Assembly (NCBI GenBank): GCA_025362675.1
Contig: JANYFN010000292.1
Location: 1-45,305 of the forward strand
Length of the DNA stretch: 45,305 bases
DNA from: Limisphaerales bacterium
GTDB lineage: Bacteria > Verrucomicrobiota > Verrucomicrobiia > Limisphaerales > UBA11358
Reading direction: 5' to 3'
Both the position numbers and the translations under genes were made by a program. Below are positions 12,829-33,042 of this stretch, piece after piece. Within the stretch, counting starts at the first letter, position 1. Each line of letters starts with the position of its first letter. The notes under the pieces are model-generated. The model ran no database searches. It worked only from the letters and a program-made list of their open reading frames with translations, and was not told the DNA's origin.

Positions 12829-15800
12829 CTACGGCAACGTGGTTTTCAGCGAATGCTTGATTTCTTCCGGCAAACTCAAACTGTCTATCCATTTGGTCGC
12901 GGCGGACGAATCAGATTTCAGCCACTGCCGCGCGACTTGAATTTGGTATTGTTGCCGCTGGGTTTCGTTGGTCACGGATTGGGTCCACTGCGCCGCGTAG
13001 TCCGGATATTTTGTCGCGGCACCATCGAGAAACGCGCTGATAATTCCTTCGCTGGCAGTTCCCGACGGCAAATTCGCCAGCCATTTGGCCACCAACGACG
13101 GTTCGGGTTGCGACCAGGTCTTGATGACGGACGGCACCAGTTCCGGTTGAGAATTGGTTGCGGGAAAAGCAACCAGCCAGTTGATGGCGGCTTCGGGATC
13201 GGCTGGCGCCCAAGTTGAAACCAAACCCTTGATGGCCGCTTTCTGGTCATCGCCCGGCGGCATGGCGGCAATAAATTTCGCCGCCTGATCCAAGTGGGGC
13301 AGATCGCAATTGCGGGCCGCCGATTCCAAAATATTTTGTCGCAACGTCGCATCGGCCAACGGTTGCAGCAACTCTACCGTTCCCGGCAAATCGCCAATCT
13401 GCAATTGACGATACGCTGCGGTGATGTATCGCGTCTGAACCTCGCCCGCAGGCAAACCGAGCGCATAAGCGACCATGTCTTTCGGGTTTTTCTGCGCCCA
13501 GCTTTCGACCAAGGCCAGGCGTGCCGAATTTTTTTTCTCCCCGTCCGGCAGGCTCGCGATCCAATTCGTCGTGGCTGAAAAATCACGTTGAAACCACGCG
13601 CTGGCAATTCCACCGAACACCGCGCCGGACAATTCAGAGTGTTGATTGGCAAATTGCGATGCGGCCTGCGGATCATTGTGCGCCCAGTTGATGACGATGC
13701 GATTGGTGACGGCCATCCGCTCGGATTCGGATTGCAAAGATTGCGCCCAATCCAACGCCGCCGGGGCGTTGGTGCCAACCCACTGATTGCATAATTCAAC
13801 CACGGCCTTTTGACGGTAGTCGCCCGGAGGAAGATTTTTGACCGGCTCCGCAGCGGTGGCTGGAGCGGTTGCAATTCGTCGGCTCAAGATAAATTCCCAC
13901 GCTTTTTCTTTGGCCGTGCTGTCAGGCAATTGCTGGCACGCCGTGGTGGCGGCTTCCAAATCTTTCGCGGCCCAGATGTCAAACAAGCCAGCAATCATAA
14001 GGCTGCGCGAGATTCCGGAGGGCAACGCTTCGGAGTCCGGTTTGGATTGCAGCCAATTCAAAACGGCCGCCGGTTGTTGATCCGCCCAGACTTCTAGGAT
14101 GGTGGATAAAATCTGGCCGCTGGCATCCAGGCCGGGAATTGATTGTCGCTGTTCGATTGCCTGCACCGGATCTTTCGCGGCCCAGAGCTGGAACAGTTCT
14201 GTGTAAATTTTTTCGCTCGGCACTGGCTTCAAATCATTCAACCGTGCCAACGTGTTCGTGAACGTATCAGCGGCCACGGCGGGAATGATTTTCTCCAAAG
14301 CGCGCTGCCGGGAATCAAGATTGGTCAACTGGCAACTCCAATCGAAGGCGGCGGGCAAGTTCGTGGTCATCCAGCGATCCAGCAACTGCTCTTGAAAATG
14401 GCGGCGGGGCGGATCATTCAAGATGATCGTCGCCGCGTTGAGTGTCTCGGAAAATTCTATGGGCGGAATCCGAGCCGACAGTTCATCCAAGCGGTGGAGT
14501 AGCTCCGCCTCGGGTCTGACTTCGGAAAACTTCTGGAGCGCGCGCTGAATCTGTTCACGATTGAGCGTGCCCGCAACCAAATCAAGTTCGCTCGCGGACA
14601 CTGCGGCCTTGGCTTGAGCTTCGGTGAGCTGCTTTTGCTGCCACAACGCAAGGCTGACCGCCGCCATCAACGCGAGCACCGCCATGACGGCAAAAACCTT
14701 AGTGAGGCGGCGCGCGGCGAGACGCTTGGTTTGGATTTCCTGAACGTTCGTTTGAGTTGCGCGAACTTGATTCTGCGCTTCGACAAATTTGTTTTGAACC
14801 GCCTGCGTCTCTTGGCGAGCTTCTTCAAGTTGGCTCTGAGCCAAGCCCGCCAGATGTTGTGTTTCCTGGATTTTACGCTGCGCTTCCCGGACTTGATCGC
14901 GCGCTTCCGCGAGCTGGCTTTGCGCGGCTTGAGCCTGCTGCTGCGCTGCTAACACTTTACTCTCCGCGACTCGCGCTTGGAGGCCCGCGGCTTCGAACTC
15001 GCCTTGCGTTTGCCGCGCTTTATTTTCTAGTTCCTGAACTTGGCTTTGGGCTTCGCGAACTTGGTTCTGCGCTTCTAAAATTTTATGCTGGGTGTCGCGA
15101 GCTTCATGGCGCGCCGCCTCGACATCGCTTTGAGCCTGCTGCGCTTGGCTGCGGGCGGCTTCAAGCTCGGTTTGCGCTTCGCGGGCTTTGGTGTGGGCTT
15201 CCTCAATCTGGCTCTTAACATCTTGCGGCAGATTTTGTGTCTCCAAGAATTTATTCTGCGCCGCCCGAACCTGATTGCGCGCTTCCTCAAGCTGCGCCTG
15301 CGCTTCCCGTGCCTGTTGCTGGGCTTCTAAAATTTTGCTCTCCGCCGCCTGCGCTTGGTTGCGGGCCTCTGCAACTTGGCCAAGGGCCTCCCGCGCCTGC
15401 TGCTGGGCTTCAAGGACTTTGCTTTGCGCTGCTTGAGCTTGATTTCGAAGCTCCTGAATTTGCCGCTGGGCTTCGCTGGACTGAATGTGCGATTCGAGAA
15501 CGTCGCGATTGATTTGCGGATCTGGGTTCGGAGGCGCTTGAATTTGCGGGTGCTTTTCCCGTGCGAGAATCTTAGCTTCTGCGAAACAACGTTTTACTTC
15601 GTGCCCCCACAAGCCATTGAATCCCACCCCGATCAATCCGGCGATCAATTGAATTTTGGCGGTCTCTAACTCGATCGCTCCGGTTTGATAATCTTTCGCC
15701 AGAAGTTCCCGTTTGCTATCAACGTGCCGGGCATCCGCAAAAATTGTCCCGCGCTCGCGCCGTGAGATATCGAGCGTGCCATCTGGCTTCACCGGGTGGC

Positions 15801-16269
15801 GCAACGCCGGGACAAAACATTCTTCGTGGGGCGATACGCCCGGCTTGTGGCTATCGCTCGCATCAGGTTCCCCAGCGATGACGAAGGGCAAAATGCGATT
15901 GCCGCGCCCGAGCTGTTTGAAGTAACGCACCGCTTCATTCACAGCGAGGCTACCGGCCGAGCGCGGCGAACAGATCACGACCAGATATTTTGATCGCTCC
16001 AATGCAAGGCGGACACTCTCGCTCAGGCTAGCGTTTCCGGGCGGTTCCGCTTGGTCTTGAAAAAGGGGATCAATATGTTGCGGGACAGCTTCACCCTGGG
16101 CACCGACCTGGCCCGTGAATTCAGCCGGGATGGAAAAATTCTTCAGCGCGGAATGTAACCAATCGCCCCAGCACAAGTTTTCCACCTCCAGTGCGCCCGG
16201 GCGTTGCGCGCAGTTGTCTTGCTGGCTGTAACTAAGGAATGCCCAATATTTAAATTCATTTTCGGTCAT
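12829..16269 (-). CDS. TIR domain - coiled coil - transmembrane - helical repeat receptor-like protein
   Basis: A 1146-residue protein. Residues 7-160 form a TIR domain: it opens with AFLSYSQQD, and LVVICSPRSAGSLAVNEAVRYF follows at 96-117. E112 sits at the place of the NADase glutamate of the WxxE motif, though the tryptophan is alanine (A109). Residues about 262-515 are an Ala/Gln/Glu/Arg-rich coiled coil with seven-residue periodicity (EAQ or EAR at 315, 322, 329). Residues 524-543 form one membrane span preceded by KRLAARRLTK, so the positive-inside rule puts the TIR domain in the cytoplasm. Residues about 560-1146 are helical repeats built on W-(A)-x-x-D-P-x-A-A-x-x-W and would be extracytoplasmic. 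Bacterial TIR domains act in signalling and NAD-degrading defence, but the role here is unproven. TAATAT lies 13 nt upstream of the ATG. Confidence 0.85.
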   Translation of the reverse strand: MTENEFKYWAFLSYSQQDNCAQRPGALEVENLCWGDWLHSALKNFSIPAEFTGQVGAQGEAVPQHIDPLFQDQAEPPGNASLSESVRLALERSKYLVVICSPRSAGSLAVNEAVRYFKQLGRGNRILPFVIAGEPDASDSHKPGVSPHEECFVPALRHPVKPDGTLDISRRERGTIFADARHVDSKRELLAKDYQTGAIELETAKIQLIAGLIGVGFNGLWGHEVKRCFAEAKILAREKHPQIQAPPNPDPQINRDVLESHIQSSEAQRQIQELRNQAQAAQSKVLEAQQQAREALGQVAEARNQAQAAESKILEAQQQAREAQAQLEEARNQVRAAQNKFLETQNLPQDVKSQIEEAHTKAREAQTELEAARSQAQQAQSDVEAARHEARDTQHKILEAQNQVREAQSQVQELENKARQTQGEFEAAGLQARVAESKVLAAQQQAQAAQSQLAEARDQVREAQRKIQETQHLAGLAQSQLEEARQETQAVQNKFVEAQNQVRATQTNVQEIQTKRLAARRLTKVFAVMAVLALMAAVSLALWQQKQLTEAQAKAAVSASELDLVAGTLNREQIQRALQKFSEVRPEAELLHRLDELSARIPPIEFSETLNAATIILNDPPRRHFQEQLLDRWMTTNLPAAFDWSCQLTNLDSRQRALEKIIPAVAADTFTNTLARLNDLKPVPSEKIYTELFQLWAAKDPVQAIEQRQSIPGLDASGQILSTILEVWADQQPAAVLNWLQSKPDSEALPSGISRSLMIAGLFDIWAAKDLEAATTACQQLPDSTAKEKAWEFILSRRIATAPATAAEPVKNLPPGDYRQKAVVELCNQWVGTNAPAALDWAQSLQSESERMAVTNRIVINWAHNDPQAASQFANQHSELSGAVFGGIASAWFQRDFSATTNWIASLPDGEKKNSARLALVESWAQKNPKDMVAYALGLPAGEVQTRYITAAYRQLQIGDLPGTVELLQPLADATLRQNILESAARNCDLPHLDQAAKFIAAMPPGDDQKAAIKGLVSTWAPADPEAAINWLVAFPATNSQPELVPSVIKTWSQPEPSLVAKWLANLPSGTASEGIISAFLDGAATKYPDYAAQWTQSVTNETQRQQYQIQVARQWLKSDSSAATKWIDSLSLPEEIKHSLKTTLP
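14725..15486 (-). repeat. Low-complexity DNA encoding the TIR protein coiled coil
   Basis: About 760 bp of imperfect repeats that encode the EAQxxxR-type heptads. Short units such as CTGCTGGGCTTC (plus strand) recur at irregular 33-bp or 66-bp spacing. It is prone to length change by slippage, so the coiled-coil length probably varies between strains. Confidence 0.7.
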
Positions 16270-16429: not shown

Positions 16430-19400
16430 TTATTTGGTCCGAATCAGTTCGGCGTTGCGCAACGTCACCGGGCCGAGTAGGCCGGATTCGAGTAGTGGCG
16501 AATCTTTCATCCAATGGTGCCAGGTGGTAAAGGTCAATCGTCCGGTCGGACTCGGTTTACCATCCAGTAGCCATTGCGGCCAGGCCTTGAGTTCCTGACC
16601 ATTCCATTCACGGTCCGGCGGCAATTGCTCGTCGCCGATGAGTCGATTCGGCCAGAGGTTGGTCACTTTAACCACTAATTTGTTTGAGCCTGCCTGCGCG
16701 ACGGTGGTTACGTTCACCCGGAACGGCGGTTTCCAAAGCACTCCCAAGTCGTGACCGTTCAGGGAAACTTCGGCGAAGTTTTTCACCGCGCCCAAGTCCA
16801 GCCAAAGTTCGCAACCAGTTGCCAAACGGTCGGCCGAAATTTGCAATTCTTTTTCATAGGTCGCCGTGCCGGAAAAATAGCGCACTCCATCGTTCGTATG
16901 CTGGGGCCAGGAAATCAATGACGCCAAGGTCACGGACGCCGGTGCGCCCCAGTTCGGCGGAAAACTTAATTGCCATTCGCCGGAGATTTCCTCGGGCACC
17001 GGCACCTTGGTTGCGTCTTGATGCAGAACGTTTCCAGAGGCCATGTGCAGTTCAATCTGACCGTTGCTCCAGGCTTTTACCAGTGGCGAACCGTCTGCGC
17101 CCACGCTGGTTTCCCATGGGGGCGATTGGCCAATTCGGGGCGTCACTGGAAGGGGCAGCATTTCGTTTTCTCGAACCGTTGCCTTACTCGGCTTACCGTC
17201 GAGGGCGTAGTCCACGCGCAACTCTTTTTCGTGGTCAACCGCCGGATCGTGACCTAACAGGTCATTGTTGGCGACCACCGGTAGGCCCTCGCGAATAAGC
17301 TCGGAAATTTTCTTGGTGACATCCATTTCACCGGTGCCATCGGTGGCAGTGTAAACCGCTTTTGAAATTATCAGATTTGGTGGGGCAGGGGATTTGTTGG
17401 TAAAAATGCCACTGGCGGCAACGATATGATCTGTGGCTTGGTTTGCTTGGCGAAAGATGACGAACACAGATCCAGCGGGTTCAAAATTCAGCGTCACCGT
17501 GGTGCGCCCATCGTGGGTGTTCCAAATTGGTGCCGCTTCCATCGTGCCCGTGTCGGGATGCCATAATTCGGGAATTTTTCCGCTGACGCGGAAGGTGCAC
17601 TCCGCCGAATCAAATTGGTGCCGCTGATTGGAGACAAAATAAATATCGGCATCAGCAGCGATGCGGTGAACGTAAGCCAGATGCGTATCGGTGCCGGTGC
17701 CGTGGGATTCAAAATCCGGCTTTAAAGCCAGCGTGGAAAAGGTGTTGGACAACGATTGTCCCCAAACGATTCGACCTTTGCCGACGGAGTTTTCCAGGAC
17801 GTTTTTCCCATCGCATTTGCCCCAGAGTTCGTCTGCCAGTTTTTTTATCTGGGTGTCACACTCTGGAAAATCGGCGAGGCTCGGCGAATATTGTGGCCGC
17901 GCTCCGACGACCGTCGCACCCGCGCGCACCAATTTACGAAGGCACTGTAATAACTGTGGCGTCATGTTCACATCTTCCGCCGGCAGAATCAGCACGGCGT
18001 AATTTGCGCCACTGGCTAAAGTAAGGCGGCCGTTTTTCACCGTGGCACCGTGCAATAGCACGTCAGCGTTGATGGCGTCGTAGTCGTAACCGGCCGGCAG
18101 CGTGGGGTTGCCAATGCGCATTTCCACCGGGGCACTTTCGCCGGTGAAGTAAGCGGCGTCCGCCACGGCCCGGCCTTGTTGCAGCAGATATTCGCAACGA
18201 GAAATATAATCAATCCAGGGTTTTCCCTGAGCCCACCAGGTTTCCGTGCGATCAAAGTGAAAACCCCATTGGCCCATCGTCATGCCTGGACTGCGGTTCG
18301 TCCACGGCTGCATGGCATAACGGTGAAAAATATAACGATTCAAGCCCTGGCAAAACATCAGGTCGCCGAGTGTTTTCAGGGAATAGGGATCTTCGAGCCA
18401 GCGGCCCGTTTGTTTTCCGGGTGCGGCGGTGAAGGATTCGGCGCCAACGATGCCTTTGCCGTAAATATGTGCAATGGATGCGGCCATCTTCACCGAGGGA
18501 TGGCCCTGGCTACCGCTCCAAAATTCGCCCATCACCACATCCGCCGGCGCGCCGGATTGCAGCGATTCAAACGGCCCGGTGTATGGTTCAACCGCATTTA
18601 GCAAACCATGCTGGCGGCACAGCTCGGCGAAATGGCCGAAGTAATTATCAGCAAACAAGTCGGCCACCGTCCGGCGCATGTCCCAGAGAAATCGTTCGGT
18701 GACGGCTGGACTATCTACAATTTGGCGGGTGAAGGTGGGGAGAAACTTTAGTGGATCATAGCCGCGTCGTTTTTGAAATTCTGCGCGAAAATTTGGCGTC
18801 CAGTCTTGGCCACCAACTTCGTAACTGTCAATCAGCGCTGTGTCAAGCGCGTGGCCGGCGAGCGGGCCGATGTCGGCGAGCACTTTGCTCATGAAGCCGT
18901 CCCAATGCGCATCCAGCGAGGTCTTGCTCAACTTATCGCATTCCAGACCACGACCTTCATCAGGCGCCGGATGATTTTCGATGCCGATGGGTGTGTAACC
19001 GACACGCAGAATAATCCAATCGCCCGCTGGCACATCCCAATGGAGTCGGCCATCCACCGCGAGCTTCGCCGTCAAATCCAGCACACTAGAATGTGAGATG
19101 GCCTCGCCGCCGGTCTCCGTGGCGGGCGGCGGTTTTACGAATGTGCGATTCACTGAAGTTTTTTGAACTAAACGTGCCGCCGTCAACTTGGCCGCATTTA
19201 CCGGGAAGATGAGCGTTTCATTTTCATCCACCGTCAGAACGTCAGGTTTTCCATTGAGTGTGAATTCGAGCCGCAATTGCTTGAACTGTCCCCAAGCTGG
19301 ATCGCCCCCGAGTTCGCTACTGCTGGCAGTGATAGATGTTTGACCACGCTTGACCAAAGCAGTGAGTTTATCTTTTACGTCCGCAGAACCACCGCCTTTA

Positions 19401-19999
19401 ACGCCATAAACGGCTCGCTGGATTTCCAACTTCGGTGCCGACGTGGCTGAATTCACGGCGGCGTCCGTCTTCACCGGCGGGAGTTTGAAAGCGAGCACAG
19501 CAATGTCGCGGTAAAACCCAAGCGTCGTCGCCGGTTGTGGCAGCACAGCGTCAAAAACCTTAGCGCCGTGGACGCGCGTTTCACTGGCGGTAAGGCGCTG
19601 CATGGCGTTGGTCACAGTATTCCACGGACCCCCGCTGCTGGACCAGCCGGCGCAATTTTCCACGCACAGTTTGAGTCCGAGTCGGTCGGCCTCTTGGACG
19701 GCAAACTTGAAATCGTTGCGCCACTCCGGACTCATGAAGTTCACCGAACCGCGTGGGATGCCGCAATCTACGTTCACGATAGTCGCACCCCCGAGGCCGA
19801 TCTGTTTCATCGCCTCGAGATCGGCCGTGATCCCGACCTGTGTGATGTTGCCGTTCATCCAATGCCACCAGGTCTGCGGTTTGGCGGAATCCGGCGGTTT
19901 GATGAATCCCGATTGTAATGAATCATTTGGTGCCGCCGCCGCTTCGAGCGCAAGCAATAGAGTGGTTAAACCAAGTCGCAGCCATGAGAAGTTTAGCAT
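16430..19999 (-). CDS. GH106-type glycosidase (alpha-L-rhamnosidase-like), paralogue 1
   Basis: A 1189-residue secreted protein with a signal peptide of about 22 residues ending in AAAA. GH106 enzymes release alpha-L-rhamnose from complex glycans. The diagnostic N-terminus is present (FIKPPDSAKPQTWWHWMNGN, then GITADLEAMKQIGLGGA and ENCAGWSSSGGPW). Candidate catalytic glutamates are E394 in DSYE and E521 in GAESFT, 127 residues apart. E471 (VEPY) and E492 (GEFW) are also conserved in the other two paralogues. The C-terminus is a GH2-like sugar-binding beta-sandwich (SLNGHDLGVLWKPPFRVNV, then VTNLWPNRLIGDE). Unusually, a module of about 80 residues occurs twice: after the first block (19190-19438) and again at 17140-17390. 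It resembles DUF3395. The gene diverges from the secreted protein at 20575. Confidence 0.88.
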   Translation of the reverse strand: MLNFSWLRLGLTTLLLALEAAAAPNDSLQSGFIKPPDSAKPQTWWHWMNGNITQVGITADLEAMKQIGLGGATIVNVDCGIPRGSVNFMSPEWRNDFKFAVQEADRLGLKLCVENCAGWSSSGGPWNTVTNAMQRLTASETRVHGAKVFDAVLPQPATTLGFYRDIAVLAFKLPPVKTDAAVNSATSAPKLEIQRAVYGVKGGGSADVKDKLTALVKRGQTSITASSSELGGDPAWGQFKQLRLEFTLNGKPDVLTVDENETLIFPVNAAKLTAARLVQKTSVNRTFVKPPPATETGGEAISHSSVLDLTAKLAVDGRLHWDVPAGDWIILRVGYTPIGIENHPAPDEGRGLECDKLSKTSLDAHWDGFMSKVLADIGPLAGHALDTALIDSYEVGGQDWTPNFRAEFQKRRGYDPLKFLPTFTRQIVDSPAVTERFLWDMRRTVADLFADNYFGHFAELCRQHGLLNAVEPYTGPFESLQSGAPADVVMGEFWSGSQGHPSVKMAASIAHIYGKGIVGAESFTAAPGKQTGRWLEDPYSLKTLGDLMFCQGLNRYIFHRYAMQPWTNRSPGMTMGQWGFHFDRTETWWAQGKPWIDYISRCEYLLQQGRAVADAAYFTGESAPVEMRIGNPTLPAGYDYDAINADVLLHGATVKNGRLTLASGANYAVLILPAEDVNMTPQLLQCLRKLVRAGATVVGARPQYSPSLADFPECDTQIKKLADELWGKCDGKNVLENSVGKGRIVWGQSLSNTFSTLALKPDFESHGTGTDTHLAYVHRIAADADIYFVSNQRHQFDSAECTFRVSGKIPELWHPDTGTMEAAPIWNTHDGRTTVTLNFEPAGSVFVIFRQANQATDHIVAASGIFTNKSPAPPNLIISKAVYTATDGTGEMDVTKKISELIREGLPVVANNDLLGHDPAVDHEKELRVDYALDGKPSKATVRENEMLPLPVTPRIGQSPPWETSVGADGSPLVKAWSNGQIELHMASGNVLHQDATKVPVPEEISGEWQLSFPPNWGAPASVTLASLISWPQHTNDGVRYFSGTATYEKELQISADRLATGCELWLDLGAVKNFAEVSLNGHDLGVLWKPPFRVNVTTVAQAGSNKLVVKVTNLWPNRLIGDEQLPPDREWNGQELKAWPQWLLDGKPSPTGRLTFTTWHHWMKDSPLLESGLLGPVTLRNAELIRTK

Positions 20000-20574: not shown

Positions 20575-23500
20575 ATGCTAAAACCCAATAATTCAAAATG
20601 GAAGCTAGCGGCAAATCTAGTTTGCCTTGCTACGCTGACCATCGCCAATTACGCCTCGGCGGCGGTTCTCTTGACGGATAACTTTAATGTGGTTTCAGGA
20701 AATTCACAAAATGTTAACCAGGACCTTGGGGTTCGTCAAGCTGGTCCGCTGGCGCTCGCCACCTATACCGGTTTGAACCTGCACCATCAGGTCGGTAATA
20801 CGGGCACGGACGTCGGCCAGCCAGGTGGCGTTTCCAATAGTGGCTACGTGCTCCTCGCGCTTAATGGGGCCTTTCAAAGCGACCTGAACATAGCGGCTGT
20901 TTCAGCCGGTATTTTAACCATCGAAGTTGATATGTATAACACTGGGCCCGCTGGTGGTGGTGGCGTGCGCCAATGGGTGGCGTGCGCACTGAGGCGTGAA
21001 GGTCAGACCTTCCCCGTGGTTGATTCGGGTGAATTCGGCTTTCTAAAGCGAGCTGACGGCGGTGTGCAGGTGTTCCAAAGCGGTGGCAGTATTGCGCCGG
21101 GAAGTTGGGACAATGCGGGCACTGCAACAGCGGATCATTGGACGTTGATCTTCACTGACACGGCTGGAACCGGCTCCGCTTTCGTCGGGAACGGATCAAA
21201 AGTCACTATGATCAATGGCTCAACCACGCTCGGGACGCTCACTCTAAGCCAGCTAAATCGATCGGGTCTTAAACTTGGCTTCACCCAGGATGGCAACCGT
21301 TTTGCTGGCATTGACAATATTTCCATTTCAGGGACGTTGCCAGCCATCTCGGTCACCGGAACGAACCAGAGCGGGGGTAATCCGTTCACGCCCTCGTGGA
21401 CGGCAGAAACTCCCAACCTGATTGCCGGACTATCTCCAACGACTGCCACTGGTGATTTCGCAAAAGAAAGTTCGGGCGGCACAGCGATTTTGACGGACGG
21501 CACGATTGGAACTTCCGGAACCATCGGCGGATTTGCGACCTGCGGCGCTGGCGGTGGTAGCGGCAGCACGCTCATCTACGCTCTCACTAATGTGGTGAAC
21601 GGATCTGATGTCACCAATATCGTAGTCTATAGCGGTTGGAGTGATGGTGGTCGTCAAGGGCAATACTATGATCTGTCCTATTCCACTATATCGCAGCCTA
21701 CAACTTATATTCCCATTGCCACGGTTTTCTATCTTCCGGGCTCATATAACGGTGCACCAGCAAACCGGGTCACAATCGCCAAGACTAACGGCACGCCGCT
21801 AGCCAGTAGCGTCGCCAACCTCAAGTTTGAGTTCGCCACGCCTCCCAATGCAGGCAACTTCAACAATGGCTATCAGGGCTATTCTGAAATCATTGTGCAA
21901 GGCGGAGATACCGCCGCCCCGCCCCCGCCGCCGTCGGGTTACCTGACCCAAGACACCTTGCCTAGTTATGCTGAAACAGTCGTGGGTGATCAAGTCGTCT
22001 TTACTGCGGGCTTCAGCAATTTTCCGCCCGTCAGCCTGCATTGGCAGGTCATTGCCGGCGGCACAACTAATAACGTCAACACGGGTGTGGTCAATGTTAC
22101 CAACAATGACAACGTTATCTCGACTTTGACCCTCAACAATGTGCAAACCAATAGTTCAGGTTTCTATCGCCTCAAAGCCGACAATGCGACCAACAATGCC
22201 GCCACTCCTTCCTATAGCGCGTCTGGTCGGTTGCTGGTAAGTAGCGCGCCGTTAATTGGAAACAACGTTGCCATGAATTACGCCAGCCAAAACTTCCCTA
22301 GTAGCGCTAGCTTCCTGCCTGCGTGGCCGGTGGACACCAACAATTTGAATTTAATCTATGGATTTCAAAGTGGAACGGGTCCGGGCACCTTTACTGTTGC
22401 GGGCGACTTTACGGGCGGTGGCAATTTTTGTAACGCCGATCCAACCATTTTGACGGACGGCCAGATTGCTTCCATGACTTCGTTACCCAACCTGGCGTTT
22501 TGTGCGGGTGGCACGCTCAATCTGGGCATCGGTTATCAAGTCATCTATACGTTGAATCCTACGACCTACGGCACGGATCTTACGAATATTACGGTTTTCG
22601 GAGGCTGGCAGGATGCCGGTCGTGATGAACAAAAATATCAGATCCTGTATTCGACGGTTCAAAATCCCTCGGTTTTTACACCCTTGGTAATTGCTGACTA
22701 TCAGCCGAGCAATCCAGGTAATCAACCCTGCGTCAACCGCACCCAAATTGTGCCGGTCAGCGGCGTGCTGGCCCATAACGTGGCAGCCTTGAAAATCAGT
22801 TGGAATGTGTCACCTTCGCCTGAAAACGGGTGGGAAGGCTATTCAGAAATCCTTGCCGGTGGCCAGCCCTCAACCGGCTTCGGACCGGTGCTTACCAACG
22901 ATATCTCGCCGAGCACTGCCTCGGACTCGGTTGGTAGCCAGCTTATCCTCACCGCAGGTTTCTCGGGTGCCACCACTATCCAATGGCAAAAAAATGGAAC
23001 CAATATTGTGGGAGCAACCGGCTCCACACTGACGCTGAATAACCTGCAACTCACTGATGCCGGAGCTTACGCGTTGAAGGCAACGAATCCGAACGGAGTA
23101 AATAGCAGTGGCGCTTGCGTGCTGACTGTAAATCCCGCACCGATAGGAACCAACAATGTGGTTACGAGCATTGCTACGCAAACTTCGATCAAGGATGTCT
23201 TCACTCCCACTTGGGACCCTTCGCCGTTAGCTAACAATTTGTTCTATAATGCTGCGCCAAGTAGTTCTGGCGACGGTGATTTCACTGGCGGAACCTTCAA
23301 CATAGCCACCGGCGCAAGTTTACCCGTGGTGTTGACGGACGGCACGTTCGGCACGATTGATTTTAACTTGAGCGGTAATCACGCTTGGGTGACGTGCCTT
23401 GGTTCAGGTAGCTCTTACCAAAATGGTCCGCTTCTGGGAGGCCAATTTGTGACCTATTCGTTGCCCGCTGCCGTGAATGGATATGATATTACTAATATCA

Positions 23501-24579
23501 TGACGGCTTGCGGCTGGAATGATCAAGGCCGCGATCAGCAATCTTACACCGTGAGTTATGCCACAGCTGCGAACCCGACTTATTTCCAGGTTCTGGCGGT
23601 TGTTAGCTACAATCCTACCAACCCGGCGGGTTATTCCATGAGCCGGGCGACTCTTACGCCGATCAGCGGAGTGCTGGCCCGCAACGTTGTGGCTCTGCAG
23701 TTCGACATGTCCTGGCCGGGAGGTGAAAATGGATTCTCCGGCTACAGTGAAATGGCTGCCTACGGTTCGCCTTCGGTCTCGGCACCGCCCGCCAGCCCGC
23801 AGATCAACGCCCAACACGAAGAATACACTGACTCCTTTACCCTCGAAACACCCAACCTAGTTGCCGGGCAATTACCCAGCACTTTTGGAGCCGGCGTATT
23901 CTCGAATGAAGGGTGTTCCGCGGCCGGGCTGACCGATGGCATACTTACCTTCGGTGGGAATACCAATAGCGCCAGTTGTGGTGCCGACGGCACGGCCGTT
24001 CCTTATATCGTATTCAACTCCGCCAGCGGCTGGAATTTGACGAATATTGTGACTTATACCCTATGGCACGATTTCGGTCGGGATGGACAGTTCTATAATG
24101 TTTCCTATTCAACATTGTCAAATCCGACAACGTTCTTGCCTCTGGCCAGTGTAGCCTATAACCCCTCCGTTCCTCATGATGGTCGAGCTTCAGGCAATCG
24201 TATCGCGATTACTCCAGCACTTGGCCAAGCCATGCTTGCCAGCAATGTGTTCGCCGTGAAGTTTGACTTCACTCCGCAAGGAACAGCGGACTTTGGCTGG
24301 TCTGGCTATACGGAAATCGTGTTGCAAGGTTCTAGTCTGGCCGCACCGACGACGCCAGTGTTGAACCCCGCAACAGTATCGGGTGGCAACCTGATTCTCA
24401 CGGGAACCGGCACGCCGAACTATGCCTACACTGTTATCACTGCTACCAATCTACAGACACCCTCTGCTAATTGGACCATTAGTGCGATTGGTTCGACTAG
24501 TGGTGCGGGCGTCTTCTCCAATTCTATCCCAGTAAGTTCGACCGAGCCGCGTCGCTTCTTCCGGGTGCAGATGCCGTAA
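20575..24579 (+). CDS. Secreted modular surface protein with four copies of an uncharacterised GW-x-D-x-GRD module
   Basis: A 1334-residue protein that I cannot assign to a named family. It has a signal peptide (about residues 1-30, ending ASA) and then a beta-rich domain from TDNFNVV to GIDNISISG (to about 21340) that looks like a laminin-G/concanavalin-type jelly roll. The rest alternates two kinds of unit. The first is a module of about 190 residues at 21343-21910, 22260-22860, 23150-23770 and 23815-24333, each with LTDG, TNI, a GW-x-D-x-GR motif and YSE. The second is an Ig-like domain (21940-22250 and 22885-23135). The C-terminal 80 residues are a Verrucomicrobia-style tail ending RRFFRVQMP. 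A role in adhesion or glycan binding is inferred from domain shapes; no catalytic motif is seen. Confidence 0.8.
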   Translation: MLKPNNSKWKLAANLVCLATLTIANYASAAVLLTDNFNVVSGNSQNVNQDLGVRQAGPLALATYTGLNLHHQVGNTGTDVGQPGGVSNSGYVLLALNGAFQSDLNIAAVSAGILTIEVDMYNTGPAGGGGVRQWVACALRREGQTFPVVDSGEFGFLKRADGGVQVFQSGGSIAPGSWDNAGTATADHWTLIFTDTAGTGSAFVGNGSKVTMINGSTTLGTLTLSQLNRSGLKLGFTQDGNRFAGIDNISISGTLPAISVTGTNQSGGNPFTPSWTAETPNLIAGLSPTTATGDFAKESSGGTAILTDGTIGTSGTIGGFATCGAGGGSGSTLIYALTNVVNGSDVTNIVVYSGWSDGGRQGQYYDLSYSTISQPTTYIPIATVFYLPGSYNGAPANRVTIAKTNGTPLASSVANLKFEFATPPNAGNFNNGYQGYSEIIVQGGDTAAPPPPPSGYLTQDTLPSYAETVVGDQVVFTAGFSNFPPVSLHWQVIAGGTTNNVNTGVVNVTNNDNVISTLTLNNVQTNSSGFYRLKADNATNNAATPSYSASGRLLVSSAPLIGNNVAMNYASQNFPSSASFLPAWPVDTNNLNLIYGFQSGTGPGTFTVAGDFTGGGNFCNADPTILTDGQIASMTSLPNLAFCAGGTLNLGIGYQVIYTLNPTTYGTDLTNITVFGGWQDAGRDEQKYQILYSTVQNPSVFTPLVIADYQPSNPGNQPCVNRTQIVPVSGVLAHNVAALKISWNVSPSPENGWEGYSEILAGGQPSTGFGPVLTNDISPSTASDSVGSQLILTAGFSGATTIQWQKNGTNIVGATGSTLTLNNLQLTDAGAYALKATNPNGVNSSGACVLTVNPAPIGTNNVVTSIATQTSIKDVFTPTWDPSPLANNLFYNAAPSSSGDGDFTGGTFNIATGASLPVVLTDGTFGTIDFNLSGNHAWVTCLGSGSSYQNGPLLGGQFVTYSLPAAVNGYDITNIMTACGWNDQGRDQQSYTVSYATAANPTYFQVLAVVSYNPTNPAGYSMSRATLTPISGVLARNVVALQFDMSWPGGENGFSGYSEMAAYGSPSVSAPPASPQINAQHEEYTDSFTLETPNLVAGQLPSTFGAGVFSNEGCSAAGLTDGILTFGGNTNSASCGADGTAVPYIVFNSASGWNLTNIVTYTLWHDFGRDGQFYNVSYSTLSNPTTFLPLASVAYNPSVPHDGRASGNRIAITPALGQAMLASNVFAVKFDFTPQGTADFGWSGYTEIVLQGSSLAAPTTPVLNPATVSGGNLILTGTGTPNYAYTVITATNLQTPSANWTISAIGSTSGAGVFSNSIPVSSTEPRRFFRVQMP

Positions 24580-25809: not shown

Positions 25810-28800
25810 ATGTCAAAAACTAAGCTGCCAAAAAACCTAATCGTTCTTAGGATGGCGTTGTTGTGTCAGTTTTTATTGGGCAGTTCAGGCTTTTCGCAAA
25901 TAACTGTTTCAGGTTCGGATCAGACGGGTATTTTGCCGCTAACTCCCACTTGGACCTTAGCTACGAACAGTATTATTGCCGGATTTAATCCTACAGTCAC
26001 CAGTGGAAATTTTGGCCAATACACCGGTGCCGATGTCAAAAACTTAACGCGACTTGGAATTCCATTGTCCATTTATGCTTACAATAATCCTCAAGCTACG
26101 AACTTGGAAGTGTGCGGTAGTGACGGCTCGGCGGGAGCTTTATTGGTCTATACTTTACCTGCTGCCATTTATGGATACGATCTTACTAACATTACGGTTT
26201 ACGGCGGTTGGCAGGATAATGGGCGCGATTCTCAAGCTTACACAGTTTACTATTCTACGGTTGCAAACCCTGGAAACTTTTATCTTCTCACGACGGTAAA
26301 TTATTCGCCGCTAGGCGTTCCGGGAGGTGTTGCTTCTGCCACCCGAGTCGTTATCAACAACGCCTCCGGCGCGGCGGTTGCCAGAAGTGTTGCCGCCTTA
26401 AAATTTGATTTTACCACACCGCCGTCGGAGAATGGTTCTGTTGGTTATACCGCTATTACCGTGCAAGGCGTGGCCGCATCCAATCTGGTGGTGCCGCCGA
26501 TTTTAATCACAACCTCAAATCTATATAACAGCGGTTCGTTTACTCCCACGTGGCTAATAGAAACGGATAGCCTCATCGGTGGGCAATTTCCCAGTGGGGT
26601 CGGCGCGGGAAATTTTAATAATGAAGGTGTGGGCGGCGTCGGTGCGCTTACGGATGGAATGTTCGGAGACGTTGGAACCTTTACCAACTATGCGACGTGC
26701 GGAAGTGGCGCCGGCCAGTCGCTCACCTATTTTCTCAATGGAGCGACACTTACTAACATCGTGGTTTACAGCGGCTGGCAGGATGTAGGACGTGACGGAC
26801 AGTTTTATACTGTTTTATATTCAACCGCATCGGCACCAACGACGTTCGTTCCGCTAACGAGTGTCAGTTTTAACCCAGCCATTTCTGGAGTTTCGGCCAA
26901 CCGCGTAGCTATCAGCACTACTTCCGGTGCGCCATTGGCTACGAACGTCGCCTTCGTGACTTTTGACTTTACGCCGCAAACAGGCAGCTTTGATAATGCT
27001 TATTCCGGATATTCAGAAATTATTTTGGAAGGTATACCCGAGTCCGGCGGCTTTGCCGGTGGTGTGACGTTTAATTCTGCTGTGCCGACGAGTAGCGCGA
27101 ATAGTGCGGATGCCACGTTGGTTTTCAATGAAATAATGTATCATCCCTCCACGAACGAAGCGGGGATGGAATTTGTAGAGTTTTACAATCAGCTGGCCGT
27201 GGACTTAGATGTCTCCAACTGGCAGGTAAGTGGCGACATAGCCTATACTTTTCCGCCGGGCACGCGGGTGGCTGGGCGTAGTTATATTGTGCTGGCGCGA
27301 ACCCCGGCTACTTTGATGTCTGCAATGGGATTATCTTCAAATGTATTTGGTCCGTTCGTAAGTCCTTTGAACAACCAGGGTGGCACCTTAAATTTATACA
27401 ACAATTCTGCACGCCTCATGGACAGCGTCACCTTTGGCACTTCTGGTGACTGGCCGGTGACGCCGGATGGCGCCGGTCCGTCTTTGTCCAAGCGCAATCG
27501 CGATTGGGGAAGTGCTTCAGCAGCTAATTGGAAGGCAAGTTGGCAGAACGGCGGCACTCCCGGAACAGAAAATTTTGCATCATCGTCTAACCCAGTTACA
27601 TTGGCGTTAAACGAGTTTTCTGGCACGACCAACACAGTGTTCTGGGTTGAGTTGATGAACTATGGAACAAATTCGATTTCATTGGGTAATTGTATCTTGC
27701 ATCACGATGGCGCAACTAATACCGACTATGTATTTCCGCTAAATGTGACAATCAATCCTGGTGCATTTCTAGTTCTATCTAATAACATGCTGGGTTTTAT
27801 TTCACCGGCTACCGGTGATAAGCTATTTTTATTTGCAACAAATTACTCATCCGTTTATGACGGACTGGTGCTGAAGAAAACACCGCATGCTCGTTACCCG
27901 GACGGGACGGGAACCTGGCTGGTCCCCAATTTACCGACGCCGAGTGCGAGCAACTATTTTGCCTTCCATACCGAACTGGTGATCAATGAAATCATGTATG
28001 ACCACAAGAATTTTATGGCGGCGAACACTAATTCGCTCCCACAAGGTAATCCTGAAGAATGGGTGGAAATTTACAATCGAGGTTCCAACGCAGTTGATTT
28101 GACTGGTTGGACTTTGTCGGGTGGTATTAGTTATTCCTTCAGCAACGGCAAGGCCATTGCGCCAGGCAACTATTTGGTCGTGGCGGCGGACGCAATCACT
28201 TTACACGCGACTTATCCCACGATTGACGTTGTCGGAAATTACAGTGGCCATTTGAGCAACAGTGGTGATACTATTATCCTTAACGATTCCCAGGGGAATC
28301 CAGCTAACCAGGTGAATTATTATCCAGGCGGTCGTTGGCCGGAATCTCCCGGCGGCGGTGGGCCGAGCTTAGAATTGCGTGATCCTAAAGCGGATAACTC
28401 AAAAGGCGAGGCATGGGCGCCGAGCATAGAGTCAACTAAGTCCTCGTGGCAGACGTTTACTTATCAGATGGTCGCCCAACCTAGCGTGACCCCAGCTCCG
28501 GACGATCAGTTTGAGGACTTCATTCTTGGTCTGTTAACGGACGGCGAGTGTTGGGTGGACGACATAAGCATCATTCAATCACCGACGAATAATCCGGTGC
28601 AATTGATCACCAATGGTAACTTTGAGAATGGTCTTACCGGCTGGCGCTTGATGGGCAATCACCAGCGCAGTAAGTTGGAAAATGATGCGGACGCTCCCGG
28701 TAATCATGTGCTGCATTTTGTTTCGAGCGGACCGCAAGAGCATATGAACAACCATATCGAGACGACCCTCAGCCGCGCCGTAACTAATGGCTTGCTCTAT

Positions 28801-31800
28801 CAAATATCTTATCGCGCTCGTTGGATCTCGGGCAATAATCTCTTAAATACGCGTCTCCATTTCAACCGCGTCGCGCACACGACCCCATTGCCCTATCCCC
28901 AGTTGAATGGAACGCCGGGAACGGTGAACTCGGTTTATACCACGAACATCGGTCCAACCTTTGCTCAATTTCAGCATCAACCCGTGGTGCCGCAGTCCTA
29001 TCAACCGGTCACGATATTCGTGAACGCACAAGACCCGCAAGGCGTTAGCTCGTGTTTGGTATTTTGGTCTGTAAATGGCGGTGTTTGGTCTAGTGCGCCG
29101 ATGACACAGACTAACGGCGTTTATGCCGGCATAATTCCAAAACAAGCAACCAGCAGCTTGGTTCAGTTTTATGTGCAGGCGGAGGATGGGCTTGGAGCGA
29201 AATCATTTTATCCCGCTAAAGGAATTAATTCAGGTGCATTTTACCGCGTCAATGACGGATTAGGTGATCTTTCCAAAGCGCATAATCTTCGAATCCTAAT
29301 GTCGCCGGAAAATATCTCGCTGCAATATGCAGTTACTAACTTGATGAGTAATGAAAATTTGCCTTGCACAGTGATTTACGACGAGCAGGAGGTTTATTAC
29401 GACATGCTAGTCCGGCTCAAGAGTAGTGAACGCGGACGGGTGGATCCGACCCGCATTGGTTTCCATCTGGAGTTCCATCCCGACCAGTTGTTTCGTGGTG
29501 TGCACCCCGTCATGCTCGTAGATCGTTCCGGTGGCGGTAACCGTCCGCAGCAGGAGGAATCCGTCATCAAACACATGGCTAATCACATGGGCGTTCCAAC
29601 GGTGAATTCTGATCTATGCCGCGTCATTGCGCCCCAGACGACGCAAAATGGCTGGGCCCTTCTTTCCCCGCGTTATGAGGACAATTTTGTTAACACTACC
29701 TATACCAATGGCAGCAATGGAATTCTATACGAGTATGAACTGACTTACTATCCACTTACTGCCGACAACGGCGGTTACAAACTTCCGGCACCGGATAATG
29801 TGCAGGGCGTGGACATTTCAGATCTGGGCAATGACAAAGAAAATTACCGTTATAACTTCATCATCAAGAACCATCGCAACACAGATGATTACTCTACTTT
29901 CATTAATGTTTCAAAACAATGGAATCTGAATGACAACGCCCTTGACGCAGCAACGCAGTTGACGATGGATGTGGATGAATGGTTGAAGGTCTACGCGCTG
30001 GTCAGCCTGAGTGGCATCGCTGATATGTATACTTTTGGCGGTAATCATAATTGGATGACATACGTTCGGCCTAGTGATGGGAAGCTCTTGTATTTTCCAT
30101 GGGACATGGACTTTTCATTCAGTCAATCTCCTACGACTCCGTTAGTGGGGGATCAAAACTTTTCTAAGATTGTGAATCTGCCCGGTAATCTCAGGCGGTT
30201 TTACGCCCATATTCAGGACGACATTGCGACAACCTATAACGCGACTTACATGGCTCCGTGGATCAGTCATTACGATTCTTTTCCCGGTCAAGACTGGTCC
30301 GGCGATCTCGATTATATCACGCAACGTGGCAATTACGCCTTGGGAATCATAAACAATGTAGGCGGCAACACGCCCTTTGGAGTGAGTGGCAGTAATTCTT
30401 TTATTGTGACAAACAATAACATGGTTACGTTGAGTGGAACAGCTCCAGTAGCCCTTACAAGCATTTTGATAAACGGTATTCTTTATCCCGTCACTTGGAG
30501 TTCGATTAATAGTTGGAGCGTTCAAATTCCTCTGGCTTCAGCCACCAATGTCTTTACCATTTCGGGTTGTGATTTATATGGCAATCTTATTACCAATATA
30601 ATCAGGACCATCGTATTCAATGGGATCATGCCAGACCCCAGTAAAGTGGTTGTATTGAACGAAATCATGTATAACCCTACGATGACAAATGCCGAGTATG
30701 TCGAGTTGTATAATGGTTCGACCAACTTCACTTTTGATCTGACTGGCTGGCATGTCAACGGTTTGGGTTATAATTTTCCTGCCGGCAGTATTCTGGCTCC
30801 GACCAACTATCTGGTGTTGGCGAAGGATGCTGTAGCGTTTGCATCGGCTTATGGTGCTAGTTCGACAGCATTTGATATTTACAGCGGCAGCCTTGATTCC
30901 AATGGTGAGACGCTAACTTTATTCCGGCCTAATCCGGTTCAAACAAATCAAGACATTTTGGTCGATCGGGTGCGCTACGAAGTCGCTGCACCGTGGCCCG
31001 TGATTACCAATGGCGCTTCATTGCAACTTATAGATATGGCGCAGGACAATAGTCGCGTGGCTGACTGGACTGCTATTCCGGCTATTTCGCCAGCTCTGAC
31101 GCCGCAGTGGGTGCGAGCCAGTGCGACGGGAATTGCACAGGCGAGCCTCGGTAGCCGACCGCTTTATATTTACCTACAATCCGCCGGTGACGTTTACCTT
31201 GACGACATTAGTGTGGTGGCTGGATCTATCGCTGAATCAGGCGTCAACGTTGTCAATAATGGCAGCTTTGAAAATTCAATGTCCCCGTGGACGATTGGCA
31301 GTGATGGCAACAACAGCGGTTCTTTTATTAGCACTAATGCCACGCATTCCGGCACCCGTAGTTTGCACCTCATCGCCTCTTCCGGCGGCACTACTCAGAA
31401 CTCATCCATCTGGCAAGATTTTGCCAGTCAACTTACAATTGGCGCGACTTACACTTTGAGCTTTTGGTATCTACAGAGCACAAATAGCGGACCGCTTACT
31501 TTGCGTTTCTCGGGTAGCGGCATCAGCATCACCACAAATCCCGCGCCGCCGGTCGCGCTTCTTCCCGTAGCCAAAACCCCTAATGCCAGCAACTCTGTCG
31601 TGACAATATTGCCTGCATTCCCAAATATCTGGTTGAACGAAGTGCAAGCCGTCAACATCACTGGCCCAACGAATAATTTCGGCACAAATACGCCTTGGAT
31701 TGAGTTATATAATTCCGGAACTAACACTTTGAGCCTTGCTGGGCTCTATTTAGCTAACAACTATGTTAATCTTACTAAGTGGGCATTTCCTACAAACCTA

Positions 31801-33042
31801 TTCATCCGGTCAAACGGATTTTTAGTAGTGTGGTGCGATGGCCTAACCAATTTATCTACTACCAATGCGCCGCATGCCAGCTTTAGTCTTACGGCCGGAG
31901 CGGGCAATGTTGTCTTGTCCCGACTCAATAACAGTATCCCTCAAATTCTCGATTATCTTAACTATACTAATGTCCCAGCGAATTGGAGTTATGGCGACTA
32001 TCCCGATGGCCAGCCTTTCTACCGTCAGTCCATGTTTATTGCCACGCCAAATGCCTACAACACCAACATTGCCGCGCCGATTTCTGTTGTCATCAACGAA
32101 TGGATGGCAGACAACAGCCACACGATTACCAACCCGGTTGGCGGGAAATTTGACGACTGGTTTGAGCTCTACAACTTCGGCACCAATGTCGTCGACCTCG
32201 GCGGCTACTATCTGACTGGGACGCTGACCAACAAAACCAAATTCATGATCCCGAATAATCAGCACTATCTAATTTCGCCAAAAAATTTCTTTTTAGTCTG
32301 GGCTGACAACTTGAGCGGATCTAACAGTCTTTCTCGGTCCGAACTCCATGTAAACTTTAAGTTGAGCAAGGCGGGTGATGCGATTGGGCTATTTGCTGGC
32401 GACGGAACGACGGTTGACGCATTGACTTTTGGCGTTCAAGTTACTGATGTCAGCCAAGGGCGCTATCTCGACGGTGCTCCTAATATTTTCAACATGACCA
32501 CGCCCACGCCGCAGTCGAACAACCTTATTCAAAACACCCCGCCGGTATTAGCGGGGATAGGTGACAAATCAGTCCACCTCGGTCAACTTGTGCAATTCGT
32601 GGCGACGGCAACCGACGCGGAAAGTGCCTATCAGTCGATTACTTTTTCTTTGAGCAATGCTCCGTCCGGAGCACGCATTGATCCGTCCAGCGGATTATTT
32701 TCGTGGGTGACAACTAATGGCTTGGTTGCCTCGACTAATTCGATCACCGTGCGGGCGACTGATAATGGCACGCCGCCATTGAACGATTCAAAGACGTTTG
32801 CCGTGTTCATTGCCGCGCGCCCGCAGTTCGCCGGCACTGTGGTGCAGAACAATAGCCAATTACAACTCACTTTCGGCACTATTCTGGGCCAGAGTTATCA
32901 GGTCCAGTTCAAAACCAACTTGGCGGATGCGAGTTGGACAAACCTTGGTGGTTCTATCACTGGCACCGACTCTCAGCGAAACGTATCTGATGATATTACT
33001 GGCGCGCCACAGAGATTTTATCGGCTGCTGGTTACACCTTAA
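25810..33042 (+). CDS. Giant secreted protein with GRD modules, lamin-tail domains and a CotH kinase-like domain
   Basis: A 2410-residue protein with a signal peptide of about 30 residues. In order it holds two GRD modules (25900-26469 and 26505-27036) and lamin-tail-type domains starting near 27120 (FNEIMYHPS), 27600 and 27980 (INEIMYDH). A sugar-binding-like segment follows (NGNFENGLTGW, about 28610). Next is a CotH-type kinase domain at about 29280-30320, with LVRLKSSERG, KNHRN and D1432/D1434 in YFPWDMDFSF. More lamin-tail domains begin near 30650, 31630 and 32090, with a second NGSFENS segment near 31255. An He_PIG/cadherin-like domain (32545-32810) and a tail ending RFYRLLVTP complete it. 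CotH proteins are atypical secreted kinases; the substrate here is unknown. Lamin-tail domains are linked to surface anchoring. Domain calls are from motif recognition. Confidence 0.85.
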   Translation: MSKTKLPKNLIVLRMALLCQFLLGSSGFSQITVSGSDQTGILPLTPTWTLATNSIIAGFNPTVTSGNFGQYTGADVKNLTRLGIPLSIYAYNNPQATNLEVCGSDGSAGALLVYTLPAAIYGYDLTNITVYGGWQDNGRDSQAYTVYYSTVANPGNFYLLTTVNYSPLGVPGGVASATRVVINNASGAAVARSVAALKFDFTTPPSENGSVGYTAITVQGVAASNLVVPPILITTSNLYNSGSFTPTWLIETDSLIGGQFPSGVGAGNFNNEGVGGVGALTDGMFGDVGTFTNYATCGSGAGQSLTYFLNGATLTNIVVYSGWQDVGRDGQFYTVLYSTASAPTTFVPLTSVSFNPAISGVSANRVAISTTSGAPLATNVAFVTFDFTPQTGSFDNAYSGYSEIILEGIPESGGFAGGVTFNSAVPTSSANSADATLVFNEIMYHPSTNEAGMEFVEFYNQLAVDLDVSNWQVSGDIAYTFPPGTRVAGRSYIVLARTPATLMSAMGLSSNVFGPFVSPLNNQGGTLNLYNNSARLMDSVTFGTSGDWPVTPDGAGPSLSKRNRDWGSASAANWKASWQNGGTPGTENFASSSNPVTLALNEFSGTTNTVFWVELMNYGTNSISLGNCILHHDGATNTDYVFPLNVTINPGAFLVLSNNMLGFISPATGDKLFLFATNYSSVYDGLVLKKTPHARYPDGTGTWLVPNLPTPSASNYFAFHTELVINEIMYDHKNFMAANTNSLPQGNPEEWVEIYNRGSNAVDLTGWTLSGGISYSFSNGKAIAPGNYLVVAADAITLHATYPTIDVVGNYSGHLSNSGDTIILNDSQGNPANQVNYYPGGRWPESPGGGGPSLELRDPKADNSKGEAWAPSIESTKSSWQTFTYQMVAQPSVTPAPDDQFEDFILGLLTDGECWVDDISIIQSPTNNPVQLITNGNFENGLTGWRLMGNHQRSKLENDADAPGNHVLHFVSSGPQEHMNNHIETTLSRAVTNGLLYQISYRARWISGNNLLNTRLHFNRVAHTTPLPYPQLNGTPGTVNSVYTTNIGPTFAQFQHQPVVPQSYQPVTIFVNAQDPQGVSSCLVFWSVNGGVWSSAPMTQTNGVYAGIIPKQATSSLVQFYVQAEDGLGAKSFYPAKGINSGAFYRVNDGLGDLSKAHNLRILMSPENISLQYAVTNLMSNENLPCTVIYDEQEVYYDMLVRLKSSERGRVDPTRIGFHLEFHPDQLFRGVHPVMLVDRSGGGNRPQQEESVIKHMANHMGVPTVNSDLCRVIAPQTTQNGWALLSPRYEDNFVNTTYTNGSNGILYEYELTYYPLTADNGGYKLPAPDNVQGVDISDLGNDKENYRYNFIIKNHRNTDDYSTFINVSKQWNLNDNALDAATQLTMDVDEWLKVYALVSLSGIADMYTFGGNHNWMTYVRPSDGKLLYFPWDMDFSFSQSPTTPLVGDQNFSKIVNLPGNLRRFYAHIQDDIATTYNATYMAPWISHYDSFPGQDWSGDLDYITQRGNYALGIINNVGGNTPFGVSGSNSFIVTNNNMVTLSGTAPVALTSILINGILYPVTWSSINSWSVQIPLASATNVFTISGCDLYGNLITNIIRTIVFNGIMPDPSKVVVLNEIMYNPTMTNAEYVELYNGSTNFTFDLTGWHVNGLGYNFPAGSILAPTNYLVLAKDAVAFASAYGASSTAFDIYSGSLDSNGETLTLFRPNPVQTNQDILVDRVRYEVAAPWPVITNGASLQLIDMAQDNSRVADWTAIPAISPALTPQWVRASATGIAQASLGSRPLYIYLQSAGDVYLDDISVVAGSIAESGVNVVNNGSFENSMSPWTIGSDGNNSGSFISTNATHSGTRSLHLIASSGGTTQNSSIWQDFASQLTIGATYTLSFWYLQSTNSGPLTLRFSGSGISITTNPAPPVALLPVAKTPNASNSVVTILPAFPNIWLNEVQAVNITGPTNNFGTNTPWIELYNSGTNTLSLAGLYLANNYVNLTKWAFPTNLFIRSNGFLVVWCDGLTNLSTTNAPHASFSLTAGAGNVVLSRLNNSIPQILDYLNYTNVPANWSYGDYPDGQPFYRQSMFIATPNAYNTNIAAPISVVINEWMADNSHTITNPVGGKFDDWFELYNFGTNVVDLGGYYLTGTLTNKTKFMIPNNQHYLISPKNFFLVWADNLSGSNSLSRSELHVNFKLSKAGDAIGLFAGDGTTVDALTFGVQVTDVSQGRYLDGAPNIFNMTTPTPQSNNLIQNTPPVLAGIGDKSVHLGQLVQFVATATDAESAYQSITFSLSNAPSGARIDPSSGLFSWVTTNGLVASTNSITVRATDNGTPPLNDSKTFAVFIAARPQFAGTVVQNNSQLQLTFGTILGQSYQVQFKTNLADASWTNLGGSITGTDSQRNVSDDITGAPQRFYRLLVTP

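Follow-up and report, generated by a model that had tools for sequence, protein, structure and literature searches.

A TIR domain without its catalytic glutamate in a membrane-spanning coiled-coil and helical-repeat protein of Limisphaerales

Introduction

What might a TIR domain do at one end of a long membrane protein when the residues of its active site are gone? The question is raised by a single gene of a lake bacterium, lying on the minus strand (16269 to 12829) of the 45,305-nucleotide stretch of DNA that we analysed (the window). All prokaryotic TIR NADases that have been tested require a catalytic glutamate (PMC7282519), while TIRs without it are still reported to act through association (PMC9153377). 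A sequence-only reading of the window had described the product as “Toll-receptor-like”, with a cytoplasmic TIR, a long heptad coil, one membrane span and extracytoplasmic helical repeats, and had placed E112 at the NADase position. Here we ask which of these features are conserved, whether the TIR can be an enzyme, and what the protein may do.

Results

Architecture

The order of the parts proposed by the sequence-only reading, and its N-in/C-out topology, are upheld (Table 1), and the architecture is conserved in about 23 species. Orthologs L002–L013 and L073–L112 share the N-terminus, including the start methionine, and the order of the parts with the window protein; a search for the same arrangement in other Verrucomicrobiota finds it, once per genome, in 22 of the 49 genomes of the window's genus. 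The parts, their order and their conservation are thus well supported by sequence or prediction. Our literature search for a TIR–coil–TM–solenoid architecture found no description of one, which does not prove that none exists.

Table 1. Parts of the TIR–coil–TM–solenoid protein, in window coordinates
Feature	Residues	Position	Strand	Basis
Whole gene, TIR–coil–TM–solenoid protein	1146 aa	12829..16269	minus	ORF and orthologs
TIR domain, cytoplasmic	1–216	15622..16269	minus	Pfam TIR_2, AF2 model, Foldseek/VIA
Helix alpha-C motif A-V-N-E-A-V-R-Y-F-K	109–118	15916..15945	minus	alignment with 35 relatives and L6/Roq1/AT1G72930
Alanine-rich heptad coiled coil, cytoplasmic	~265–520	14710..15477	minus	periodicity test
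Single transmembrane span	525–545	14635..14697	minus	hydropathy, 21 orthologs
Alpha-solenoid, predicted extracytoplasmic	571–1146	12832..14559	minus	AF2, Foldseek, repeat profile

The TIR fold

The N-terminal domain is indeed a TIR. Pfam TIR_2 matches the window protein with E=8.8e-6 (26.7 bits, slightly below the 28-bit cut-off), and ThsB_TIR matches ortholog L073 above its cut-off (1.8e-5). The AF2 model, built with 13 sequences, has the topology of the TIR fold (defined by a five-strand parallel sheet with flanking helices), at modest (low to middling) confidence (pLDDT 57, pTM 0.63); its VIA-align list consists mostly of TIR domains at Z 9–12, and the Foldseek/VIA matches include the TIRs of SARM1, RUN1, Roq1, MyD88 and SPARTA. 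When the TIR by itself was compared with PDB sequences by phmmer there was no match, whereas a profile search gave matches.

The active site

In the WxxxE motif of helix alpha-C, the catalytic glutamate lies four residues past a conserved tryptophan, the same +4 spacing from the pocket tryptophan as in the W71/E75 numbering (PMC7075850). The window protein reads S-L-A-V-N-E-A-V-R-Y-F-K where its Verrucomicrobiia relatives read S-R-W-V-N-E-E-V-K-x-F-K, placing A109 at the tryptophan, E112 at +3 and A113 at +4. The register is fixed by the HMM alignment, in which the second glutamate of the profile falls on the glutamate of W-C-L-M-E in flax L6, with Roq1 and AT1G72930 aligning to the profile in the same way, and by the residues that relatives outside the family have at +4 and +3 (see below). 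The earlier observation that the usual tryptophan is an alanine was therefore right, but E112 had been placed one residue off: it is Trp+3, and the catalytic Trp+4 is Ala113.

The same columns separate the family (the window protein and its orthologs) from other Verrucomicrobial TIRs. Outside it, +4 is glutamate in 35/35 relatives; among the 22 family TIRs in our tree it is alanine (13), valine (7) or threonine (2). In the tryptophan column the relatives have 26 W, 7 Y, 1 F and 1 H, and the family has none of W, Y or F. At +3, E112 is invariant in the family, while the relatives have 17 E, 8 Q, 4 R, 3 A, 2 D and 1 N; because the residue varies so freely there, this column is not the catalytic one. 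With no glutamate at Trp+4 in the window protein or in any other family member, the NADase reading fails.

In a tree built without the +4 column, the 22 family sequences group as a single clade (SH-aLRT 100) whose nearest outgroup is a set of TIR-TM-WD40 proteins (L086, L089, L090), and a single change is enough to explain the loss of the glutamate. As judged from these alignments, the case for catalytic loss throughout the clade, glutamate and tryptophan together, is strong. We excluded from the tree three sequences of 26–32% identity (L067, L068, L070), whose alignment near the motif is unsure. These are proteins of 443–495 aa that form a second, distant TIR-like group (TIR_2 0.0028 in L067), and their motifs (VIQEHM, LIQEQM) have neither tryptophan nor glutamate at the catalytic positions, so more than one loss may have occurred in Verrucomicrobiia.

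Selection

Between the window protein and its near relatives, dN/dS is lowest in the TIR (0.13–0.21), with 0.15–0.34 in the coil and 0.27–0.38 in the span and repeats; dS is near saturation and the values are approximate. These ratios indicate that the gene is not decaying and that its TIR is under purifying selection. The region without catalysis is thus the most constrained of the three, which fits a role in binding or assembly.

Coil, span and topology

The “about 250 residues of heptads” noted earlier are borne out by a periodicity test: hydrophobic residues in 245–518 recur with a period of 7 (chi2 132, df 6), while periods 3–6 and 8–10 give only 0.8–3.5. Alanine occupies one core position of the heptad and V/A/I/L the other, with a 28-residue super-repeat. 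Dimerisation of the coil is supported, though indirectly. Weak matches of this region to SMC, Tropomyosin and Alanine_zipper, and matches to PspA and LmuB/JetC, were rejected as reflecting coiled-coil composition only, and the PADLOC matches of the protein are likewise coiled-coil only. Across the family, the coil ranges from 145 to 609 residues and the C-terminal part from 204 to 694.

A single span preceded by basic residues was also correctly read: 21 residues, VFAVMAVLALMAAVSLALWQQ, follow RLAARRLTK, with a net charge of +4 in the 15 residues before the span and +1 after it. Since both flanks are positive in several orthologs, support from the positive-inside rule is moderate only. Taken with the absence of an N-terminal signal, the basic N-flank and the single span, the evidence moderately supports a type II protein with the TIR inside and the C-terminus outside.

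The helical-repeat solenoid

Beyond the span lie 601 residues rather than the approximately 590 of repeats first estimated; helical repeats they are, except for the first ~25, which form a low-confidence linker. AF2 models the solenoid entirely as helical hairpins (pLDDT 84), in ~16 units of ~32 aa with the pattern W-x-x-x-D-P-x-A-A...LP and a tryptophan spacing of ~32. No Pfam model covers residues 571–1146. Foldseek returns HEAT and PPR proteins (E ~1e-4, low TM), and the VIA Z of 13–14 is within the range for unrelated helical repeats.

Stand-alone proteins of the same genus (L093–L096, 744–757 aa) share the repeat at 26–31% identity over hundreds of residues, and a repeat profile made from them matches the window solenoid. 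They consist of an N-terminal signal anchor followed by repeats only, with neither TIR nor coil; that they begin with a signal anchor independently supports a place for the repeat outside the cytoplasmic membrane. The locus of L093 also holds smc.

Relatives and origin

The TIR-TM-WD40 proteins of Verrucomicrobia that form the nearest outgroup have a TIR of the same subfamily (45–50% identity), and they keep the catalytic glutamate (Y-V-N-E/Q-E). Their span follows directly after the TIR, whereas the family has a long coil between the two, and they carry WD40 propellers at the C-terminus where the family has the helical repeat; the window protein has no WD40 match and its model is all helical. 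With a TIR, then one span, then a C-terminal repeat domain, the family is a new variant among the bacterial TIR-TM-repeat proteins. The repeat was presumably gained by fusion. Domain replacement is seen here as well, the relatives having a WD40 sensor on the outside where the family has an exported rod of helical repeats.

Distribution and genomic context

Besides the 22 single copies, the genus has one more in G017, truncated at a contig edge. One copy occurs in another family of the same order (G384, L133), which could be due to transfer or to MAG contamination, and a class-wide sample of 286 genomes held no further copy. Searches of the window's own genome turned up no further close relative of either the TIR or the repeat. 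A second TIR detectable with PF13676, PF01582 or PF08937 is present in 8 of the 22 carrier genomes and absent from 14, some genomes being incomplete MAGs; a fixed partnership with an active TIR is therefore unlikely. The other TIR_2 protein of the window's genome (G000:C89, L156:1260-2588, 442 aa) has the motif W-T-Y-F-E and stands between a HlyD-like gene and an ABC transporter.

The gene had been described as standing alone next to smc. In the window smc is indeed its convergent neighbour, but the linkage is not conserved (4 of 17 family loci, the window included), and a function associated with SMC/condensin was rejected for that reason. No neighbour gene is conserved across the 17 loci, in agreement with the earlier view that the gene is not in a recognisable defence cassette; membership of Thoeris, SPARTA or CBASS TIR-STING was rejected too, no ThsA, Ago/APAZ or cyclase partner being conserved.

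Directly upstream on the same strand, after a 160-base gap, lies a GH106 rhamnosidase that is not conserved at the other loci. It is one of two GH106 alpha-L-rhamnosidases in the window (16430-19999 and 33396-36914), ~13 kb apart. Also in the window are a 1334-aa protein with Ig-like domains (Ig_3, I-set; 20575-24579), upstream of a pilin-like protein with an N-methylation motif, and a 2410-aa protein with six Lamin Tail Domains, a CotH kinase domain and carbohydrate-binding domains (25810-33042).

Discussion

We consider it rather probable that the protein is a single-pass type II scaffold or adaptor whose pseudo-enzyme TIR signals by assembly or recruitment. The outer alpha-solenoid would bind a ligand or an envelope component, and binding would cluster the molecule or set its spacing; the long cytoplasmic coil would pair parallel chains and present the TIR domains far from the membrane, where they would assemble with one another or recruit another cytoplasmic protein, without cleaving NAD. 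That the coil mediates clustering when something outside is sensed is a reasonable supposition, and we further infer that a ligand exists, that its binding triggers assembly and that there is a cytoplasmic partner. The pathway cannot be read from the locus because no neighbour gene is conserved. Counting against a scaffold is the spread of coil and C-terminal lengths, looser than would be expected of a precise signalling ruler.

That same freedom of length between species speaks for the main rival, a purely structural tether, in which coil and solenoid would link the cytoplasmic membrane to another structure and the TIR would be a docking or polymerising module without signalling. Coil and solenoid make up most of the mass, roughly half of the genus carries the gene, one copy per genome, with no defence or signalling partner conserved beside it, and all of this would suit a tether; however, of all regions of the protein the TIR is under the tightest constraint, and the ancestors had the receptor-like layout TIR-TM-WD40, so that on balance we hold a tether to be rather unlikely. 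We think it improbable that the TIR is still an enzyme, with E112 or another acidic residue having taken over and clustering switching on NAD cleavage. The invariance of E112 and an otherwise preserved fold, with the AFLSYS-QxDN strand and loop intact, would be expected of a working enzyme, but E112 sits one residue (~100 degrees on the helix) away from a catalytic column that is A/V/T in 22/22 family members, and the pocket tryptophan is lost as well. Glutamate is, moreover, the commonest residue at +3 in the enzyme-like relatives (17/35), and E112 is therefore better seen as a legacy of enzyme-type ancestors whose catalytic residue was the one after it than as a compensating change.

Plant RRS1 suggests another role, that of a regulatory sensor whose catalytically active partner TIR is encoded at another place in the genome: RRS1 has no catalytic glutamate and pairs with RPS4 (PMC7282519). 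As in the family, its TIR is kept by selection; unlike the family, it has no span, and the active TIR that it works with is its genomic neighbour in a pair, an arrangement with no consistent counterpart in the family. The WxxxE motif of G000:C89 would fit such a partner in the window's genome, but the partner gene is never adjacent and most carrier genomes have no other TIR that the three Pfam models detect, and we regard pairing of this kind as very improbable.

The assembly-based scaffold that we favour resembles what is described for MyD88, TIRAP and RRS1, whose TIRs signal by assembly or recruitment. In MyD88, TIRAP and endosomal TLRs the catalytic glutamate is lost, as it is here, the position being glutamate in <10% of their sequences (PMC7075850); such a loss is characteristic of scaffold TIRs. 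In Toll and Toll-like receptors, too, a single span separates a cytoplasmic TIR from an outer repeat domain, but their order is the reverse of that in the window protein, which has an N-terminal TIR, type II topology, a long coil and no LRR, and is thus not a Toll-like receptor in the sense of a type I protein with extracellular LRR and C-terminal TIR. “Toll-receptor-like” therefore holds for function only; the closest kin are the TIR-TM-WD40 proteins, and kinship to Toll, MyD88 and TIRAP is shown only at the level of the TIR fold. More tentatively, the family could represent a bacterial transmembrane receptor that relays an outside signal through assembly of an enzyme-dead TIR, a scaffold in the style of Toll/MyD88 that would have evolved independently from an enzyme-type TIR receptor.

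Bacterial TIRs have been studied nearly only as NAD-consuming enzymes. Clade-wide, selected loss of the glutamate in a membrane-spanning TIR makes non-enzymatic signalling by a bacterial TIR open to test, and the close enzyme-type TIR-TM-WD40 relatives serve as built-in controls.
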